This document shows, piece after piece, positions 1 to 40,437 of a DNA stretch of 64,000 nucleotides. Position 1 is the first letter of the stretch, and every line of letters starts with the position of its first letter. A model generated the notes under the pieces. It did no database searches. It was not told the origin of the DNA and saw nothing but the letters and a program-made list of their open reading frames with translations. Location: IMG/VR virus record IMGVR_UViG_3300049489_001113, positions 1 through 64,000 of that record; one strand, written 5' to 3'. The position numbers were made by a program, and so were the translations under genes. This DNA is from a virus.

Positions 1-663
1 GGGACCATCGACCCCGACAAGGTTCGGAAGGACAAGGCCAGCGTGATCTCCCGGGAGAAGGTGCTCGAATGGTACGAGCCCGACCCGATGGGACTTGAAG
101 GCGTGGGTGGACTCGGGGGCCTGAAGGACTGGCTTCGGCAACGACGCACGGCATTCTCACCCGCCGCCCGGGACTACGGGTTGCCGACCCCAAAGGGGGT
201 CATGCTCGTGGGCATCCCCGGCTGTCTGCATGGAGACACCGTGATTCACGATCCGGTGACTGGGACGACCGAGACGGTGCGAGAGCGGCACCAACGAGGG
301 GAGCGTTTCCACGTGTGGTCGCTACACCCGAACGGTGAACCTGTGATTGCCGCGGCGGAACGTCCACATAAGTACGACCCGGCACAGATGGTCGAGATCG
401 AATTCGAAAACGGTGAGACGATCCGCGTCACCCTTGGACACCGTTTCTGGGACGGGGAGAAGTGGATCACTGCTTCCGAGGTTTACGAGCGGCTGCAGCG
501 ATCCGAGCCCGTCCTTCTCCCGACCAATGCGGACACCGACCTTGCAGTTCGTGCCGAAGATGCTCTCCGTTGGTCTGAAACAACTCCAGGTTCTCTGGTC
601 GATTGTCGGAGCGATCTCCGTTCCTGTGGTGCACCACCTCCCCTGGTCGAAGACGACGATTGA
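1..663 (+). CDS. Ycf46-like AAA+ ATPase, N-terminal half fused to split-intein N fragment (partial)
   Basis: The reading frame is open through the left edge; the first in-window start is a GTG at 43. From that GTG, residues 1-60 are the N-extein. It ends in KGVMLVGIPG, the front of a Walker A loop, after a GLGGLKDWLRQR...YGLPTPKG stretch typical of cyanobacterial Ycf46-type AAA+ ATPases. Cys61 begins intein block A (CLHGDTVIHDP) and VTLGHRFW resembles block B. The frame stops at 661-663 without the rest of the ATPase; that follows at 1183 after an antisense HNH gene. Trans-splicing with the 1183 product would rebuild GIPG-TGKS, a perfect P-loop. The protein's cellular role is unknown. The residues beyond about 142 are antisense to HNH coding sequence, so the exact functional end of the intein fragment is uncertain. 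Confidence 0.85.
   Translation, partial: GTIDPDKVRKDKASVISREKVLEWYEPDPMGLEGVGGLGGLKDWLRQRRTAFSPAARDYGLPTPKGVMLVGIPGCLHGDTVIHDPVTGTTETVRERHQRGERFHVWSLHPNGEPVIAAAERPHKYDPAQMVEIEFENGETIRVTLGHRFWDGEKWITASEVYERLQRSEPVLLPTNADTDLAVRAEDALRWSETTPGSLVDCRSDLRSCGAPPPLVEDDD
223..660 (+). other. Split intein, N-terminal fragment (IntN)
   Basis: It starts at Cys (codon 223-225) directly after the GIPG of the P-loop. Up to 146 residues are encoded. Visible motifs are block A (CLHGDTVIHDP), the nucleophile Cys1, and a block-B-like T..H motif in VTLGHRFW. No endonuclease domain is present in frame. It pairs with the 37-residue IntC at 1183-1293. Confidence 0.82.
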
Positions 664-1129
664 GCACCGTCTCCATGACGAGACGGTGCTCTCGGACACA
701 GCCACTCCTACGCCCAGCTTCGGGGTGACCAGGCATCCACAACAACACGTACCCACTCTTGTCGATTCGTCGCCCACCGCGCCAAGCCGTGTTGCCGGAG
801 CCCGCCGATCTCTCTGCTGTGAAGCGCGCATCGGCTACAGTACCCCCGGCACTGCGGATCGCATCGGCGACACGGTGTGTGCTTGAGCTGAGACGTGCCG
901 CAACCACCCCGAGCGTTAGGCCCGTCTCGTAAAGTGCTCGAGCTTCCAAGGCACGAGACTGCGTCCACCGCTGGTTGCGACTTCCCCAACCCAGTCGACG
1001 ACGGTAGTTGTTGATCGTTGCGAGGCTCACCTTGAAACGCTTCGCCAGATCCGCCAGCTCTACCTCCCCTTGGAGGTAGGCATCCCGCAAGTTGGCAATC
1101 TCGTCGTCCGTCAGGCAACGCGGGGCCAT
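467..1129 (-). CDS. HNH homing endonuclease lying antisense between split-intein halves
   Basis: This 220-residue protein has two helix-turn-helix-like segments in its N-terminal half (LADLAKRFKVSLATINNY; LTLGVVAARLSSSTHRV). A C-terminal HNH nuclease follows (GEVVHHRNGDRSDNRPENL). The start was set at 1129 because AGGAG lies just upstream; an in-frame upstream start at 1162 lacks this. The gene runs opposite to the ATPase and its 3' end overlaps the IntN frame by about 200 bases. Its position between the intein halves suggests a free-standing nuclease that spreads the broken gene by cutting intein-less alleles. That role is inferred from the arrangement. Confidence 0.85.
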   Translation of the reverse strand: MAPRCLTDDEIANLRDAYLQGEVELADLAKRFKVSLATINNYRRRLGWGSRNQRWTQSRALEARALYETGLTLGVVAARLSSSTHRVADAIRSAGGTVADARFTAERSAGSGNTAWRGGRRIDKSGYVLLWMPGHPEAGRRSGCVREHRLVMETVLNRRLRPGEVVHHRNGDRSDNRPENLELFQTNGEHLRHELQGRCPHWSGEGRARIAAAARKPRKQ

Positions 1130-1182
1130 ACTTACTCCTGGGTTACACGGTATACCTAACACTAAACAAAGAGGTCGTCAAC

Positions 1183-1293
1183 ATGGACAAGATCGCAGTT
1201 CGATCCGTGAAGCTCGTGGATGTCGAGCCCTACTACGACTTTCACGTCCCTGTGTTCAACAACTATTGGGCGCATGGCGTGTGGCACCACAAC
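1183..1293 (+). other. Split intein, C-terminal fragment (IntC)
   Basis: The fragment is 37 residues, close to the 35-40 of known natural IntC pieces. It contains the block F/G signature VPVFNNYWAHGVWHHN ending in Asn37 with penultimate His, followed by Thr as the +1 extein nucleophile. The ATG at 1183 has its own ribosome binding site AAAGAGG at 1168-1174, so the fragment is translated independently. Confidence 0.85.
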
Positions 1294-2010
1294 ACCGGAA
1301 AGAGCCTCGCCGCCAAGGCCATCGCCACCACGTGGGGTATGCCCCTGCTCCGCCTCGATCTCGGGGCGCTCAAGTCGAAGTGGGTGGGTGAGTCGGAAGC
1401 GAACATCCGGAAGGCGCTACGGGTCGCCGAGTCGGTCGCACCGTGCATCCTGTGGTGCGACGAGATCGAGAAGAGCCTGGACGGTGCGACGAGTGGAGCC
1501 GCCGACGGTGGGGTGTCCGCCGACACGCTCGGAACCATCCTCACCTTCATGCAAGAACGACAGGGCGCCGTGTTCGTCCTGGCCACGGCCAACGACGTGA
1601 GCAAGCTACCGCCCGAGCTTCTCCGCAAGGGACGGTTCGACGAGATGTTCTTCGTCGACCTCCCGAAGTTCAACGAGCGGCGAGAGGTGGCGGCGGTCAC
1701 GCTGCGCAGGTTCAAGCGTGACCCCGACGGGTTCGACCTCGACGCCATAGCCTCAGCGACCGACGAGTTCACCGGCGCCGAGATCGCCGCGACCGTGCCG
1801 GAAGCCTTGTTCTCCGCCTTCGCCGCCTCCCGAGAGGTGACGACCGAGGACATCGTGGCGAGCGCCCGCACCGTGGTTCCCCTGGCGAAGAGCGCCAGCG
1901 AGAAGATCAAGGCACTCCGCACGTGGGCGCAGGGACGGTGCCGACCGGCCGCGCCGCCCACCCAGGACACCGAGGCGATCCCCGGGTTGGGGCGCGCCAT
2001 CATCGAGTGA
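1183..2010 (+). CDS. IntC fused to Ycf46-like AAA+ ATPase, C-terminal half
   Basis: Residues 1-37 are IntC. The C-extein starts at Thr38 and supplies TGKS of Walker A. AAA+ landmarks follow: Walker B CILWCDEIEK (D93, E94), sensor 1 ATAND (N137), an Arg-finger region LLRKGRFDE, and a small helical lid domain. The core resembles cyanobacterial Ycf46 (MPLLRLDLG, VGESEANIRKAL). Without trans-splicing neither half can hold ATP, since the P-loop is split exactly between GIPG and TGKS. It is followed by a promoter-operator and a separate downstream operon. Confidence 0.88.
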   Translation: MDKIAVRSVKLVDVEPYYDFHVPVFNNYWAHGVWHHNTGKSLAAKAIATTWGMPLLRLDLGALKSKWVGESEANIRKALRVAESVAPCILWCDEIEKSLDGATSGAADGGVSADTLGTILTFMQERQGAVFVLATANDVSKLPPELLRKGRFDEMFFVDLPKFNERREVAAVTLRRFKRDPDGFDLDAIASATDEFTGAEIAATVPEALFSAFAASREVTTEDIVASARTVVPLAKSASEKIKALRTWAQGRCRPAAPPTQDTEAIPGLGRAIIE

Positions 2011-2044
2011 CTTCTAGGGCGCGAGAAAAAAGTTTTTGAGGGGA

Positions 2045-2074
2045 TTGACATGTGCATGGTGCATATGTCATAGT
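2045..2074 (+). promoter_or_regulatory. Promoter with overlapping palindromic operator
   Basis: A perfect TTGACA (2045-2050) precedes CATAGT (2069-2074) with 18-base spacing. Over it lies an inverted repeat, TGACATGTGCA (2046-2056) and TGCATATGTCA (2060-2070), with one mismatch and a 3-base centre. Its position over the -35 and spacer suggests a repressor site. It sits 22 bases before the start of the 2096 gene. Confidence 0.55.
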
Positions 2075-2095
2075 AGCACAAGAAAGGGGAAACCA

Positions 2096-2923
2096 ATGAC
2101 GATCAAGATCAAGCCTGGGTTGCTCGTGAGCCTGTCCGTCCGCTCCCGTGGTGGGGTCACCTACCAGAAGAAGGACCTCCTCCGCACCGTCGAGGAGGCC
2201 ACCGAGGTGAAGGCGTGGGAGACGACGCGCATCATCGCCGACACCGAGGAGCACGAGCGCGCCACCAAGGTGCGGGGGGCGGCACGCTCCACCATCGCCA
2301 AGGTGTGCACGCACTCCGCCTTCGGGCTGCTCTGCCCCGAGGCGGACGAGTCCAACCTGGACGCGGCCATCGCCGCCGCCCGGAAGCTGGCCGAGGAGTT
2401 CAACGCCACGGCGAAGCACACGCAACTGGGGGTGTACGTCCTGAAAGGACGAGTCGCCGCTACCGACGCCGAGGCGGCCGCCGCCATCGCCGACGAGGTG
2501 AAGGGGCTGCTCGCCGAGATGGAACGGGCGTGCAAGGCCGCCGATGTCGAGGCCATCCGCGAGGCGGCGAGCCGAGCGAAGGGGCTCGGGGAAGTGCTCG
2601 ACGGACCCGCCGCCTACACGGTGGGGGAGGCGGTGAAGGCCGCCCGAGCGGTGGCCCGTGCCGTGGTCAAGCGGGTGGAGAAGGAAGGCGAGAGCGCCGA
2701 GCAGGTGCTCCGCACGATCTCCCTCGCCCCCATCGAGGTGGCTCGGTTCATGTTCGAGGACGACACGCCCGCCACCACGGTCGAGGGAACCGAGCTTCCG
2801 GCGGTGGATGTGCGCCGCTTCACCGACGACATGGGTGGGGATCCCGAGCCCACCGTGGACGAGCCTTCCACGGGAGAGGTGAAGGTCGCCGCCATCGACA
2901 CGCAGCCCATGATGGAGGTGTGA
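2096..2923 (+). CDS. Conserved hypothetical early protein (275 aa)
   Basis: Start chosen at ATG 2096 with AGAAAGGGG upstream; a longer frame from 2036 would overlap the promoter. The protein is alpha-helical and Ala/Glu-rich. It has a Tyr-Gln-Lys-Lys stretch near the N-terminus, long Ala-rich helices in the middle and an acidic C-terminal tail. It is the first gene after the operator-promoter. I do not recognise the family. Confidence 0.75.
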   Translation: MTIKIKPGLLVSLSVRSRGGVTYQKKDLLRTVEEATEVKAWETTRIIADTEEHERATKVRGAARSTIAKVCTHSAFGLLCPEADESNLDAAIAAARKLAEEFNATAKHTQLGVYVLKGRVAATDAEAAAAIADEVKGLLAEMERACKAADVEAIREAASRAKGLGEVLDGPAAYTVGEAVKAARAVARAVVKRVEKEGESAEQVLRTISLAPIEVARFMFEDDTPATTVEGTELPAVDVRRFTDDMGGDPEPTVDEPSTGEVKVAAIDTQPMMEV

Positions 2924-2924
2924 C

Positions 2925-3086
2925 ATGCCGATTGACCACAGGGGTGTCTTCGTGAGCTTCAACGACCGATGTGCGCGTTGCTCGTGCACGTACAAGGAGC
3001 ACGGCAACACTGGGCGTTGCCCCCACGGGGCGACACGCTACGCGCACTTCATCCCTCGTCCGAAGGAGGTGCACCCTGCCGTGTGA
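2925..3086 (+). CDS. Small cysteine-rich protein (53 aa)
   Basis: ATG 2925 starts one base after the stop of the previous gene; the stop is TGA at 3084-3086. It carries Cys at residues 16, 19, 21 and 33 plus nearby His, a possible small zinc-binding fold (CARCSCTYKEHG...RCPHG). It looks like a translationally coupled early phage gene. Function unknown. Confidence 0.6.
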   Translation: MPIDHRGVFVSFNDRCARCSCTYKEHGNTGRCPHGATRYAHFIPRPKEVHPAV

Positions 3087-3408
3087 TTCCACCCGGTCCC
3101 CCGGCCAGTCGGCCGCCGACCGTCAACGACAGATCGACGAGGCCGTGAAGCGCCTCGAGAACGCACTGCGGGATCGCTCCGCCAAGGTGGTCATCGCACA
3201 GAACGGTGCCATCGCCTTCACCGGCGACTGGGATCGCTCCGGGGTGGGCGACGTGTGCGCCTACCGGCGCCTCGTGGTCGACGGTTCTTTCGCACTCCGC
3301 ACGGCGGTCGCCGCCGCCGAGGCGCAGAGCGGACGCAAGGTGAACGAGGCGGCCGTGGCCGCCGGGTTCCACAGCCACGACAAGGGCAAGACCTGGGGGA
3401 GGGACTGA
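3076..3408 (+). CDS. Hypothetical protein, uncertain (possibly CTG) start
   Basis: The frame is open from further upstream, but the likely coding part is the DEAVKRLENALRDRSAK... segment. The only strong ribosome site, AAGGAGGT at 3063-3070, is spaced for an in-frame CTG at 3076. The alternative is a GTG near 3145 with a weaker site. The protein contains VVIAQNGAIAFTGDWDRSG and a helical C-terminus ending in HSHDKGKTWGRD. Its stop overlaps the next ATG (TGATG). Family not recognised. Confidence 0.5.
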   Translation: MPCDSTRSPGQSAADRQRQIDEAVKRLENALRDRSAKVVIAQNGAIAFTGDWDRSGVGDVCAYRRLVVDGSFALRTAVAAAEAQSGRKVNEAAVAAGFHSHDKGKTWGRD

Positions 3409-3668
3409 TGAGGTTGCCAAGTGCCACGGTCCGCAAGACCAACGCCAACAACCCCGACACACGCACCGTCGAGGTGTTCTACCCCGGCGGGCGCGGCTTC
3501 CTGCTGCACCTGTGGGTGCGCCACGATGGCACACCGATCGCCAGTGTCGAGCGCGCCGATCCCGGCATCGTCGTCATGGTACCGGCGAACGCCCAACACG
3601 GTGCGCAACTGGGTGATTCGATCGACAGCCACGCCTTCACCACCACCGACAAGCCTTTGAGGCGCTGA
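3408..3668 (+). CDS. Hypothetical protein (86 aa)
   Basis: ATG 3408 overlaps the previous stop and its own TGA overlaps the next ATG, so it is coupled on both sides. It is a beta-rich short protein (TVEVFYPGGRGFLLHLWVRH...). No known motif was recognised. Confidence 0.6.
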   Translation: MRLPSATVRKTNANNPDTRTVEVFYPGGRGFLLHLWVRHDGTPIASVERADPGIVVMVPANAQHGAQLGDSIDSHAFTTTDKPLRR

Positions 3669-3907
3669 TGCTTGAACAATCCGAGCTTGCGTGCGGCGCC
3701 TGTGGTTGCGCGGAGCATCGCATCCGTGGTGTGCAGCACCCGACACGCCGTTCCTTTGTCGAGCTGGTGACCGTGTGCTGTGGCTGCGAGAGCGTGACGC
3801 ACGTGCGCCTCGAACCACCCTCCCTGGAGTTCGACTGGGGTGACCCCGACTACGGGGAAAAGAACGACGGCATCCTGTGCATGATGCGGTGGCCCGAGAA
3901 GAAGTAA
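3668..3907 (+). CDS. Zinc-ribbon-like small protein (79 aa)
   Basis: Two Cys pairs, ACGACGC near the N-terminus and CCGC around residues 38-41, form a plausible zinc ribbon. The C-terminal half is acidic. It is the last gene of the coupled cluster that begins at 2096; a 348-base gap follows. Confidence 0.6.
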   Translation: MLEQSELACGACGCAEHRIRGVQHPTRRSFVELVTVCCGCESVTHVRLEPPSLEFDWGDPDYGEKNDGILCMMRWPEKK

Positions 3908-6045: not shown

Positions 6046-6168
6046 TCACTTGCTGGGTGTGAGGTGCCGCCATGTGCGGCGCTTGCGTATGTCGCACACA
6101 GTCGGGTTGGAGATCCCATAGCGCCGCGCGAGCACACACCCCGGGTCGGCAGAGTCAAGAATAATGTG
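6046..6168 (-). pseudogene. HNH endonuclease remnant, C-terminal helix-turn-helix part
   Basis: The minus-strand frame ending at 6046 encodes DPGCVLARRYGISNPTVCDI followed by RKRRTWRHL. This is the DNA-binding tail usual for HNH homing endonucleases. No nuclease domain precedes it; upstream the frame reads antisense to the 6265 gene leader. A second remnant with the HNH half lies at 6830-7062. Confidence 0.55.
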
Positions 6169-6264
6169 GCTCGAACTCGAGGGCCAACGGCAACCCATCG
6201 TGATGCTCCGCCGTCGCAACTCACGGATCATCGACGTTTCACCAGTCAACATCAGGAGGTCAAC

Positions 6265-6605
6265 ATGAAGGCGAAGACGAAGGCGAAGACGAAGGCACCG
6301 ACCACGGCCAAGGCGCGCAAGACCGGCCCGCCCACCCGCGTGGTGGTGCGTGGGTCCGAGTGCGGGGTGTGGATGGGCACCTTGGTGCAGGTCACCACCG
6401 AGCGGACGGTGGTGCTTTCCGACGCGCGCCGTGCGTGGTCCTGGACGGGTGCCACAGAGTGTGCGGGGCTTGCAGTGCGCGGTCCCGGTGGGGGCAAGAT
6501 CACACCATCGGTCCAGACCGTGACCCTGTTCGGCGTGTGCGAGGTGTTGGAGGCAACACCCGCTGCGGTGGAGGCATGGGGCCAGGTGGCGCCGTGGCGC
6601 GTGTA

Positions 6606-6606
<1 letters not shown>
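6265..6606 (+). CDS. DUF6948-like protein (113 aa)
   Basis: ATG 6265 follows AGGAGGT. After a Lys/Ala/Thr-rich N-terminus (KAKTKAKTKAP) comes VVVRGSECGVWMGTLV and VVLSDARRAWSWTGATEC. This matches from memory a small phage/bacterial family numbered DUF6948, of unknown function. The frame stops at TAG 6604-6606, exactly where a Gly-Ser/Asp/Tyr repeat starts in the -1 frame. Relatives I recall can end in such Gly-rich repeats, so this gene may have lost or may frameshift into its tail. Confidence 0.65.
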
Positions 6607-6821
<215 letters not shown>

Positions 6822-6829
6822 CCACCCCG

Positions 6830-7062
6830 GGGGATCTCCCGGGGGTGGGGTCCCACCCCAACAAGACTATGGCCTGCGCGATCTCCGTCGTGATCTTGGC
6901 ACTCCCCATCATCTCCCCGTGGGCGTGCCGCCCCTTTGCGTGCATGTCCCGCACATTGTCCTGGGGTGTGCCGAGGAACAGGTGATCCGGTCTGACGCAC
7001 GAAGGTACATCGCATCGGTGAAGCACACACATCCCGCCAGGAACCTTACAGGAGAATGCCAA
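6830..7062 (-). pseudogene. HNH endonuclease remnant, nuclease half
   Basis: The minus-strand frame encodes CVLHRCDVPSCVRPDHLFLG, then QDNVRDMHAKGRHAHGE and an AKITTEIAQAIV helix. This is the H..C....C..P.HL..GT..N..D signature of phage HNH endonucleases. The expected N-terminal W/Y-rich half is missing because the frame is cut at the start of the 7062 gene. The C-terminus runs into the hexamer array. It is a decayed element. Confidence 0.7.
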
Positions 7063-37731: not shown

Positions 37732-38124
37732 ATGTGGAACTGCCACCACTGCTCGAAGGCCGCCCTCGACACGGATGCTCGGTGCCCCCAGTGCGGAGCG
37801 CCGAGAGCCAGAAGCTCGCGGGCCGGAGGGTCTCCGGTGCCCGAGGCCGTCGCGATCAACCAGTGCACGAAGCTCAAGTTCGGTGACGGCAAGGCATTCG
37901 GCTACATGCGCTGGACCGAGGAGTTCGGCAGCGTGACGGACTCCCACCATCAGCTCGTGATGAACATGCGGGTGGAGCCGCCCGGTCTCGCCGAGCCCGA
38001 GGAGATGAAGCAACTCGGTGAGTGGGGCTGGGTCAAGGTCGCCCCGGGCCACTACCAGCGTGAACTGGAGCGAGCCCCGGTCATCACGTTCGAGGGTGAG
38101 AAGGCGAAGCATCTCCGGTTCTGA
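37732..38124 (+). CDS. Zinc-ribbon protein (130 aa)
   Basis: It begins MWNCHHCSKAALDTDARCPQ with CG following, a classical zinc ribbon, followed by a linker and a beta-rich domain (GWVKVAPGHYQRELERAPVI). It is the last gene of the rightward structural block and faces the leftward methyltransferase remnant. Confidence 0.62.
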   Translation: MWNCHHCSKAALDTDARCPQCGAPRARSSRAGGSPVPEAVAINQCTKLKFGDGKAFGYMRWTEEFGSVTDSHHQLVMNMRVEPPGLAEPEEMKQLGEWGWVKVAPGHYQRELERAPVITFEGEKAKHLRF

Positions 38125-38248
38125 GATCACCGGCGCAGAACTCGCGCACATCCTCACCGCTGCCGGCGCACTCGTACCCGACTGTCCGCCACCCCTCCCT
38201 GGGACGGCGTGCGAACATCTCGAGCTTCTCCATGCCCGGGAACATCAA
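38084..38248 (-). pseudogene. Displaced C-terminal fragment of the MT-A70 methyltransferase gene
   Basis: The minus-strand frame encodes MFPGMEKLEMFARRPREGW, then VGYECAGSGEDVREF. It aligns with the intact methyltransferase end MFVSLDKLELFARRDRPGW, VGNECPSTSGVDIRDW. It lies immediately after the HNH-AP2 gene stop, has no start of its own, and keeps the high-GC codon use of the phage. It looks like the original 3' end cut off by the HNH insertion. Confidence 0.78.
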
Positions 38249-38874
38249 CACCATGAACGCGCTTCGTTGACGTGCGTAAACAGCTCCGCACGTAGTTTCA
38301 CGGCGGCCGTGACGGCTGCCTCGAAAGAGTCGAAGCACCCCCCGTTGTGTCGAACTCCTTGGTGGCACACGCGAACCCTGAACCGCCCACCGTTCTCCAA
38401 GTACACGTTCCTATGTCCGGTGGACGACCTGCCACGCTGGTTCTGCACACTCTGCTGGGGAGTAACGACGCGGAGATTCGCGCGTCGATTGTTCAATCGG
38501 TTGCCGTCGATGTGGTCCACTGCAACCTCACGGCGCGTCTCTTGGAGCAGAAACCGGTGTAAGAACCCGCGCCTTGATCGCACGTAACCGTGCGTATTCA
38601 AACTCCAGCGCCCTGCTCTCATAAGAAGCGGAACATCAGCTATATCAACAATGGTCCTGCTGACCACCGCACCTCGCCGATTCGTGAGGAGAAGCCACAC
38701 ACCATCAACCGCCTCCACCAGATCATTGAAGCCGCGTGAAATGGCGCCAGCCTTTCGTCTACGTTTGGCGGCGTAATGCGTGTTGCACACACCGTTCGCG
38801 TACCTGGGTCGCGGGCACCCTGCGACCCCGCAAGGGGACCTACTCTTACTGTTTGACCCAGTCACGGATATCAA
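38245..38874 (-). CDS. HNH homing endonuclease with AP2-like DNA-binding domain (209 aa)
   Basis: The N-terminal CGVAGCPRPRYANGVCNTHY is a Cys/His element common in phage HNH proteins. VAVDHIDGNRLNNRRANLRV is the HNH nuclease. RNVYLENGGRFRVRV with FDSFEAAVTAAVKLRAELF is an AP2-like domain. The gene overlaps the 3' end of the methyltransferase by 29 bases and is AT-richer than its surroundings. It has inserted into the methyltransferase gene. Confidence 0.9.
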   Translation of the reverse strand: MISVTGSNSKSRSPCGVAGCPRPRYANGVCNTHYAAKRRRKAGAISRGFNDLVEAVDGVWLLLTNRRGAVVSRTIVDIADVPLLMRAGRWSLNTHGYVRSRRGFLHRFLLQETRREVAVDHIDGNRLNNRRANLRVVTPQQSVQNQRGRSSTGHRNVYLENGGRFRVRVCHQGVRHNGGCFDSFEAAVTAAVKLRAELFTHVNEARSWC

Positions 38875-39457
38875 CTCCAGATGTTGATGGGCACTCGTTA
38901 CCTACACAAGTCCATCCTGGTCTATCACGTCGGGCAAAGAGTTCCAACTTGTCTAAACTGACGAACATTGAGTCCAGCGCATCCTGCACGCACTCGGGCT
39001 TCGCGCTGTGCTTCAGGTTCGGTGCGAAGAACACGTTCCGCACCGACCTGTTCTCGAGCTTGTCGTACACCTTCCCTCGCGTACCCACGAGCATGAACTC
39101 GCACGCATTGCGGGCGAGCCGTCCCATCCCGAAGGCGATGTCGGACGCACCGATCTGAACGTCCTCGGCATCCACCTCGACGCCCTTGCCCGTCTTCACC
39201 CAAACCCATACCTGCTTCTGCTCGAACCCGTACGCGTCGACGGCGCACATCCCCGCGGAGATCATCGACGCCGGGCACCAGAGAACGAGCACGGCGTCGT
39301 CCGCCGCGACGTTCTTCACGGGCAGGGTCACAATGTCTCGGATCGACATCGTCGTGTAGTTCGACCCGGCCCCCCTCGGTACGTCGCTCATCGTGAGCTT
39401 GTCCCCGAATTGCCAAGCTGGATCCGAAACAATCACTCCATACTTCTTCTGTTCCAC
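38846..39457 (-). CDS. MT-A70 family DNA adenine methyltransferase with replaced C-terminus (203 aa)
   Basis: VIVSDPAWQF is the catalytic motif (DPAW in place of DPPW), followed by LVLWCPASM and the C-terminal DKLELFARRDRPGW. GTG 39457 follows AAGGGAGAACGC, the same leader as the 16092 gene. The last 40 codons are AT-richer than the rest, and a displaced homologous end lies beyond the HNH gene. The enzyme should still be active since the C-terminal signature was restored. Confidence 0.82.
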   Translation of the reverse strand: MEQKKYGVIVSDPAWQFGDKLTMSDVPRGAGSNYTTMSIRDIVTLPVKNVAADDAVLVLWCPASMISAGMCAVDAYGFEQKQVWVWVKTGKGVEVDAEDVQIGASDIAFGMGRLARNACEFMLVGTRGKVYDKLENRSVRNVFFAPNLKHSAKPECVQDALDSMFVSLDKLELFARRDRPGWTCVGNECPSTSGVDIRDWVKQ

Positions 39458-39468
39458 GCGTTCTCCCT

Positions 39469-40437
39469 TCACACCATCTCCGACTCGAGCAGCGCCGACA
39501 CCACGTCGGCACCCAGTGAGTCCGGATCTTTCCTGTCGTCACCCGAGTAGCGCGCAACCCACGAGGGTACGTGCTTCGCCACCGTGTCCGCGAGGATGTG
39601 CGTCCCCGTCGTCCCTGCCGGATCGTTGTCCAGAAAGAACGTGCACGAGGACGCAGCGCACAGAAGCTCGATCTGCCGGCGGCTCGGCTTGCTCCCCATG
39701 ATCGCCACGGGACACACCTCGCCGAGACGAGCATGCCCCCGCGTCTCCTGCCACACCCGCATCGCGTCGAAGGGTCCCTCGACCACCACGACGTGCGCTG
39801 CCTCCCGTGCCGCGAGGTGGGCGCCGAAGAGGTGGCGGGACTTCTTCGCGTTCCAGTACGTGTGCCACCGTTGCGGGTCGTCCCGCGTGGTGCGCCCGAG
39901 GGCGCCGGCGAGGCGCCCGTTGCGGTTGCGCAGAGGAACCGTGGCGCGGTGCCGTTCCTTGTCGAAGCCCACGGACCAGGCTTCCATCGCCTGGACGGTG
40001 AACCCCCGCCCCATCATGTAGTCGCGCGCCTCCTCGTGAAGCGGCGCGAACTTCTCGTACATCACGCCGGGCAGGAGGCCGTCATCGTCGTCCTTCGCGG
40101 GTGGCGCGTCGTAGTCCTCCACCGCTCGAACCGCGTCGAGGAGACCATCCTCCTCGAGTTCGATCACCTTCCACCTGATCTCGTCGAGGTCTGTGTCGGC
40201 GTGAAGCTCGAGCGCATCGAGAAGCTGCTCCACGGTGCCGCCGAACCCGCACCCGAAGCAGTTCACGAGGCTGCGCACCGTCTCGCCGTAGCTGATGCCC
40301 ATGGACGGGTGACGGTCGGTCCCCTTCTTGTGCCGCCACGGCGCGAGCAGGCACGAGAACTGGACGTTCCCGCCCCCCGTCACCACACGGCTGGCGCCGA
40401 GTTCGTCGGCTACCCAGAGGACGTCCTTCTCGATCAT
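39469..40437 (-). CDS. DnaG-type DNA primase (322 aa)
   Basis: ATG 40437 overlaps the kinase stop (TGATG); the longer frame is antisense noise. An N-terminal zinc finger uses C29, H36 or H43, C60 and C63 (VNCFGCGFGG). The TOPRIM catalytic part is HVVVVEGPFDAMRVW and FFLDNDPAGTTG. No helicase domain is fused; DnaB is encoded separately at 42832. Confidence 0.85.
   Translation of the reverse strand: MIEKDVLWVADELGASRVVTGGGNVQFSCLLAPWRHKKGTDRHPSMGISYGETVRSLVNCFGCGFGGTVEQLLDALELHADTDLDEIRWKVIELEEDGLLDAVRAVEDYDAPPAKDDDDGLLPGVMYEKFAPLHEEARDYMMGRGFTVQAMEAWSVGFDKERHRATVPLRNRNGRLAGALGRTTRDDPQRWHTYWNAKKSRHLFGAHLAAREAAHVVVVEGPFDAMRVWQETRGHARLGEVCPVAIMGSKPSRRQIELLCAASSCTFFLDNDPAGTTGTHILADTVAKHVPSWVARYSGDDRKDPDSLGADVVSALLESEMV

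Follow-up and report, generated by a model that had tools for sequence, protein, structure and literature searches.

A fractured viral AAA+ ATPase gene as a likely derivative of phage P-loop inteins with an antisense HNH endonuclease

The IMG/VR virus record IMGVR_UViG_3300049489_001113 is 100,478 bp long, and its bases 1-64,000 were analyzed here as the window. The first 2,010 bases hold an AAA+ ATPase gene in two reading frames, together with two intein halves and an HNH endonuclease gene on the opposite strand (Table 1). The frame at 1-663 (+) carries the AAA+ extein up to MLVGIPG and then reads into CLHGDTVIHDP..., the start of the intein. The frame at 1183-2010 (+) opens with MDKIAVRSVKLVDVEPYYDFHVPVFNNYWAHGVWHHN, followed by TGKS and the remaining AAA+ domain. 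The Walker A motif of the ATPase is broken at GIPG^TGKS by the intein (^ marks the site here and below), as an original prediction made from the sequence alone had proposed, and both the frames and the continuity of the phrog_8638 profile bear this out. The N half matches this profile to position 316 and the C half from position 315; since these matches meet, the two exteins are parts of one protein that is restored on removal of the intein. The viral record begins inside the gene, therefore the 5' end is missing, and it was not found at the far end of the 100,478-bp record. The search for uninterrupted homologues suggested in the original prediction found them in other viral contigs, for example with VGLPGTGKS in L005 and L008. 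Its assignment to the Ycf46 type was not established, as the best-supported family is phrog_8638 (AAA+, function unassigned), the other matches are generic AAA, and the NCBIfam CDC48/FtsH relatives all fall below the cut-off.

The intein N half (223-663) matches intein_Nterm TIGR01445 with 32.3 bits (cut-off 24.5). The intein C model TIGR01443 gave no match on the genome, the window C half being short and divergent, and this half was identified instead by comparison with P-loop inteins retrieved by a DNA pattern. One of these, the contiguous mini-intein L055, matches the N half with 53% identity (E=9e-26) and the C half with 60% (E=9e-13). As both halves match this independently retrieved intein, their identification is far beyond chance, and the predicted split intein, with an N fragment from Cys and a 37-residue C fragment ending in HHN, holds. 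The class 1 intein residues are all present, namely Cys1, TLGH (Thr-x-x-His), the penultimate His and Asn of HHN, and Thr at +1. No direct relatives of the window intein N half were found in IMG/VR or INPHARED. Based on the sequence, the N and C polypeptides would be expected to splice in trans and rebuild GIPGTGKS.

The antisense HNH gene that had been noted between the halves was recovered by HNH_3 (PF13392) on the minus strand with E=4.3e-9. All invariant HNH columns are kept in the alignment with its relatives, and the helix-turn-helix is present. The start is most likely the ATG at 1129; the alternative GTG at 1162 is disfavoured, since ATG 1129 has AGGAG 5 nt upstream. About 195 nt at the 3' end of the gene lie within the N-half frame. 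A fold search gave no significant whole-chain match, with I-HmuI as a weak fold match only. If expressed, the protein may cut uninterrupted P-loop DNA and home. A host gene in two frames with intein halves at the break, continuous exteins and a nuclease gene between the halves is the layout of a fractured gene with a split intein.

Table 1. Features of the interrupted ATPase locus (positions in the window).
Feature	Position	Strand	Basis
N-extein, N-terminal AAA+ ATPase (phrog_8638) to GIPG of Walker A; 5' end missing	1..222	+	phrog_8638 match
Intein N splicing half: Cys1, block A CLHGDT, block B VTLGHRF, ~106 codons	223..540	+	TIGR01445; L055 match
HNH homing-type endonuclease with N-terminal helix-turn-helix regions, 220 amino acids, antisense to intein spacer	467..1129	-	PF13392; conserved columns; AGGAG 1139-1135
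Spacer remnant that forms the end of the N polypeptide, up to the first stop (661-663)	541..663	+	aligns with L144 and L145 spacers
Intein spacer broken by in-frame stops at 661, 676, 820, 889, 1012 and 1033; frame shared with both halves	661..1035	+	
AAAGAGG ribosome-binding site, 8 nt upstream of the start codon of the C half	1168..1174	+	sequence
Intein C splicing half, 37 amino acids, own ATG to HHN	1183..1293	+	L055 match; profile from relatives
C-extein, TGKS to stop, rest of the AAA+ ATPase	1294..2010	+	PF00004 E=1.9e-26; phrog_8638 E=2.5e-96

The DNA pattern describes the end of an intein at a P-loop (GV..HN^TGK), and the contiguous phage inteins found with it interrupt Walker A at the position seen in the window. 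Many of them, L055 excepted, have long low-complexity spacers whose opposite strand encodes an HNH gene homologous to that of the window (E 5e-41 to 2e-13), and the sense intein frame runs through this gene without a stop. The HNH alignment was then used to scan IMG/VR and GTDB genomes; profiles of the intein N and C halves were applied without requiring contiguity, and HNH proteins were clustered at 80% identity. It was found that 78 HNH clusters have both intein halves on the opposite strand, 77 of them contiguous and one, the window, split; contiguous means zero stops by definition here, while detection of N half, C half and HNH is independent of contiguity. The HNH gene lies at offset 2 in 77 of 77 contiguous clusters, and the window HNH lies antisense between its intein halves at the same offset; what sets the window apart from this family is its sense frame, which is not open. 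A larger repeat gave 90 contiguous clusters with the window again as the single split cluster and a second, probable split at a contig edge (L164), along with 2 clusters in which the C half alone was detected and 45 without an intein. In cultured phages, tblastn found no intein relatives of L144, a contiguous member of the family.

Analysis of stop codons indicates that the open frame is maintained. Synonymous shuffles of the HNH codons of 11 relatives gave means of 2.9-7.8 stops in the intein frame, with a probability of zero stops of 0.000-0.025 in each, and the observed number is 0. Over the 77 contiguous clusters the shuffles predict a mean of 4.8 stops against 0 observed; for the window, 6.3 are expected and 6 observed, and the 45 HNH clusters without an intein carry a mean of 5.4 stops at offset 2. 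Chance openness of the sense frame is ruled out by the shuffles and by the stops in HNH relatives outside inteins, and selection keeps the intein sense frame open through the antisense HNH in the contiguous relatives. The multiplied probability (log10 about -205) should be read as very strong and not as exact, because clusters share ancestry. Amino-acid identity is 65% for HNH and 30% for the sense spacer, with changes concentrated at HNH codon position 3; since HNH exceeds the spacer peptide in conservation in every one of 4380 pairs, it is the conserved product. The HINT fold was tested on L144, which shares 43% (N) and 57% (C) identity with the window halves. In its predicted intein structure both ends are modelled with confidence and match RecA, DnaB and DnaE inteins (best E=6e-6), and the spacer between them is predicted to be disordered, with a predicted local distance difference test score below 50 over most of residues 115-253.

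How, then, did the window intein become split? All six in-frame stops are confined to the spacer, the two halves share one frame at a distance of 960 nt, and the first part of the spacer can still be aligned with the spacers of L144 and L145. In a maximum-likelihood HNH tree, whose bootstrap is not fully settled so that the support values are rough, the window pairs with L144 (98/89) and then with L145 (100/96), both contiguous, and it sits inside a clade of contiguous antisense-HNH inteins. Because the HNH nests in this clade, the halves keep one frame and the spacer start aligns, the split is secondary, and the window is very probably a split (fractured) derivative of an intein family with an antisense-encoded HNH homing endonuclease. 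In the ancestral contiguous form, one sense frame would have encoded N-extein, intein N, spacer, intein C and C-extein, with HNH on the opposite strand of the spacer and with selection purging sense-frame stops from it. In the window phage this constraint was probably lost; the six spacer stops would then have arisen, ending the N polypeptide at 663, and the C polypeptide would have come to start at an ATG newly gained at 1183 and served by a ribosome-binding site of its own, in whichever order. The two polypeptides would bind and splice in trans to give GIPGTGKS, and the minus-strand enzyme could cut uninterrupted P-loop genes, leading to the copying in of the whole unit; homing by the HNH as the likely driver, as in the original prediction, is kept here as a reading.

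Other outcomes may be preserved as well. L055 is a 141-amino acid mini-intein in a GAIG^TGKT P-loop, in a host protein resembling a phage large terminase. It has no HNH gene and keeps a 27-amino acid antisense remnant like the HNH C-terminus (59%, E=9e-7, sense position ~3438), which looks like an alternative outcome to splitting. In L164 (IMGVR_UViG_3300012894_000085), an intein N half, an antisense HNH and 4 intein-frame stops lie between sense position 2618 and the contig end; the C half would be beyond that end and the host is another large protein. L164 is a probable second fractured case.

Some further intein ends were seen at P-loops. In L092, a 286-kb viral contig, a short separate frame carries an intein C half close to its start (GVYVHN^TGKNARDSK), and the neighbourhood holds no N half in that frame; this is possibly an unrelated split intein. 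In L108 and L135 the frame stops after the TGK that follows an intein C end, and an N-half-like match lies ~1 kb upstream in another frame.

The derivation of the window from contiguous inteins has to be weighed against what speaks against it and against other explanations. The split cases amount to one complete example and the probable one at a contig edge, the window is represented by one metagenomic record for which no close intein relative was found, and a look for sigma-70-like promoters at the starts of HNH and of the C half gave none; moreover, the splicing of the split pair and the cutting by HNH are what we infer from sequence. All of these weigh against the proposed derivation. One alternative is gene decay, with a broken intein frame, halves that fail to splice and loss of the AAA+ protein. 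The six stops in the intein frame would fit such a process, yet the two frames run for 220 codons upstream and 275 codons downstream without a stop or frameshift, the splice residues and AAA+ motifs are intact, and a start codon with a ribosome-binding site stands exactly where a split C half needs them, which makes decay unlikely. An assembly or sequencing artefact, or an RNA intron in place of an intein, is hardly credible. The metagenomic contig does end within the gene, but an indel error would not produce six separate in-frame stops while preserving the phase, and these stops also disagree with one continuous gene, the outcome named at the outset as a possible refutation. For an intron, the Rfam search gave no match, and the intein halves are clear.

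Another possible option is a classical fractured gene, in which an already split intein later received a free-standing HNH gene that was reversed by chance, with the same trans-splicing and homing. The present-day layout would be identical, and fractured genes with a nuclease between the halves have been described (PMC6892783). Against this, the same HNH family is found antisense, in the same place and relative frame, inside 90 clusters of unbroken inteins; the window HNH nests in their clade, and its intein halves remain in one frame with the aligned spacer start. We regard this option as quite improbable. Of the fractured gene originally predicted, the split gene with HNH between its halves stands, and the insertion of a free-standing HNH between them is disfavoured because this HNH family often lies antisense inside unbroken inteins under open-frame selection.

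The relatives occupy a variety of P-loop proteins. Their hosts include terminases, an SbcC-like protein (L144), a superfamily 2 helicase (L145), phrog_5156 (L147 and L173), a helicase (L054) and a strawberry-notch helicase (L219). Gly-Lys is found within the six residues after the site in 67/78 clusters, and position +1 holds Ser, Thr or Cys in 76/78. In Pectobacterium phage Abuela the contiguous form is a 771-amino acid frame around a coding sequence annotated as hypothetical. In Pseudoalteromonas phage PHS3 (L286), a 708-amino acid terminase frame at 1553-3676 (-) holds a contiguous intein with an antisense HNH, and the public annotation of this locus gives an HNH gene and a shortened terminase. 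Based on these data we consider it likely that there is a widespread, largely unannotated class of phage inteins (some in bacterial genome contigs) that carry an antisense homing endonuclease in a disordered, stop-free spacer and have moved between the P-loops of unrelated ATPases (terminases, helicases, SbcC-like and AAA+ proteins), and in which loss of the sense frame, giving a split intein, is a route to fractured genes.

Parts of this picture are known. Dassa et al. (2009) reportedly described fractured genes in which a split intein is combined with a nuclease gene between the halves. The PolB gene of phage MIJ3 is a fractured gene with a nuclease between its halves (PMC6892783). The window resembles these in its host gene in two pieces, its split intein and the nuclease gene between. 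It differs in that its nuclease lies antisense and runs into the N half, and in that the relatives are contiguous inteins with the same antisense nuclease; for the Dassa et al. cases the difference in orientation is a presumed one. P-loop inteins of phage terminases are also known; these are ordinary contiguous inteins, with the TerL1-a site between Lys and Thr (PMC5050341). They share the insertion at Walker A of phage ATPases, whereas the window site lies before the T of TGK, and no antisense nuclease is described there. The ShiLan element, an HNH hidden in a phage methylase (PMC11855218), is of the same wider HNH family and is likewise hidden by overlap with an open host frame; in contrast to the window, its HNH is on the same strand in the third frame, with no intein detectable. 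The few actinophage HNH relatives examined are all same-strand. In Gordonia phage GAL1 (L287), at 2751-3638 (+), an HNH match (from 3001) lies on the same strand as, and out of frame with, a coding sequence that one record annotates as nucleotide kinase, possibly a ShiLan-like hidden HNH. An antisense nuclease within a contiguous intein was not found described in the literature, the coverage of which was partial and excluded a 2025 preprint on actinobacteriophage inteins of non-canonical architecture (10.1101/2025.01.02.630785).

In such inteins the homing nuclease is packed unlike the usual in-frame domain, with two proteins read from opposite strands of the same DNA, one of which is under little more than stop-avoidance. 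With its preserved contiguous, split and HNH-lost stages, the class offers a concrete evolutionary path by which fractured genes and natural split inteins arise. It also supplies new P-loop inteins and helps to explain why some phage terminase genes carry annotations as truncated or hypothetical.

HNH_3 has five matches in the 100-kb record (window 578-688, 6949, 17238, 38449 and 63911), four of them over the family cut-off. At 38084-39472 (-) an MT-A70-like methyltransferase (38846-39472) is followed by an HNH gene (38245-38874), past which a second copy of the methyltransferase tail, KLEMFARRPREGWRTVGYECAG, lies in the open reading frame 38084-38368 (-); this arrangement resembles an HNH insertion with a spare 3' end. 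A long short-repeat tract at ~6640-6820, whose minus strand encodes (RS)n and whose plus strand encodes (GS/GY)n, is fused in frame to an HNH-like open reading frame at 6046-7062 (-).
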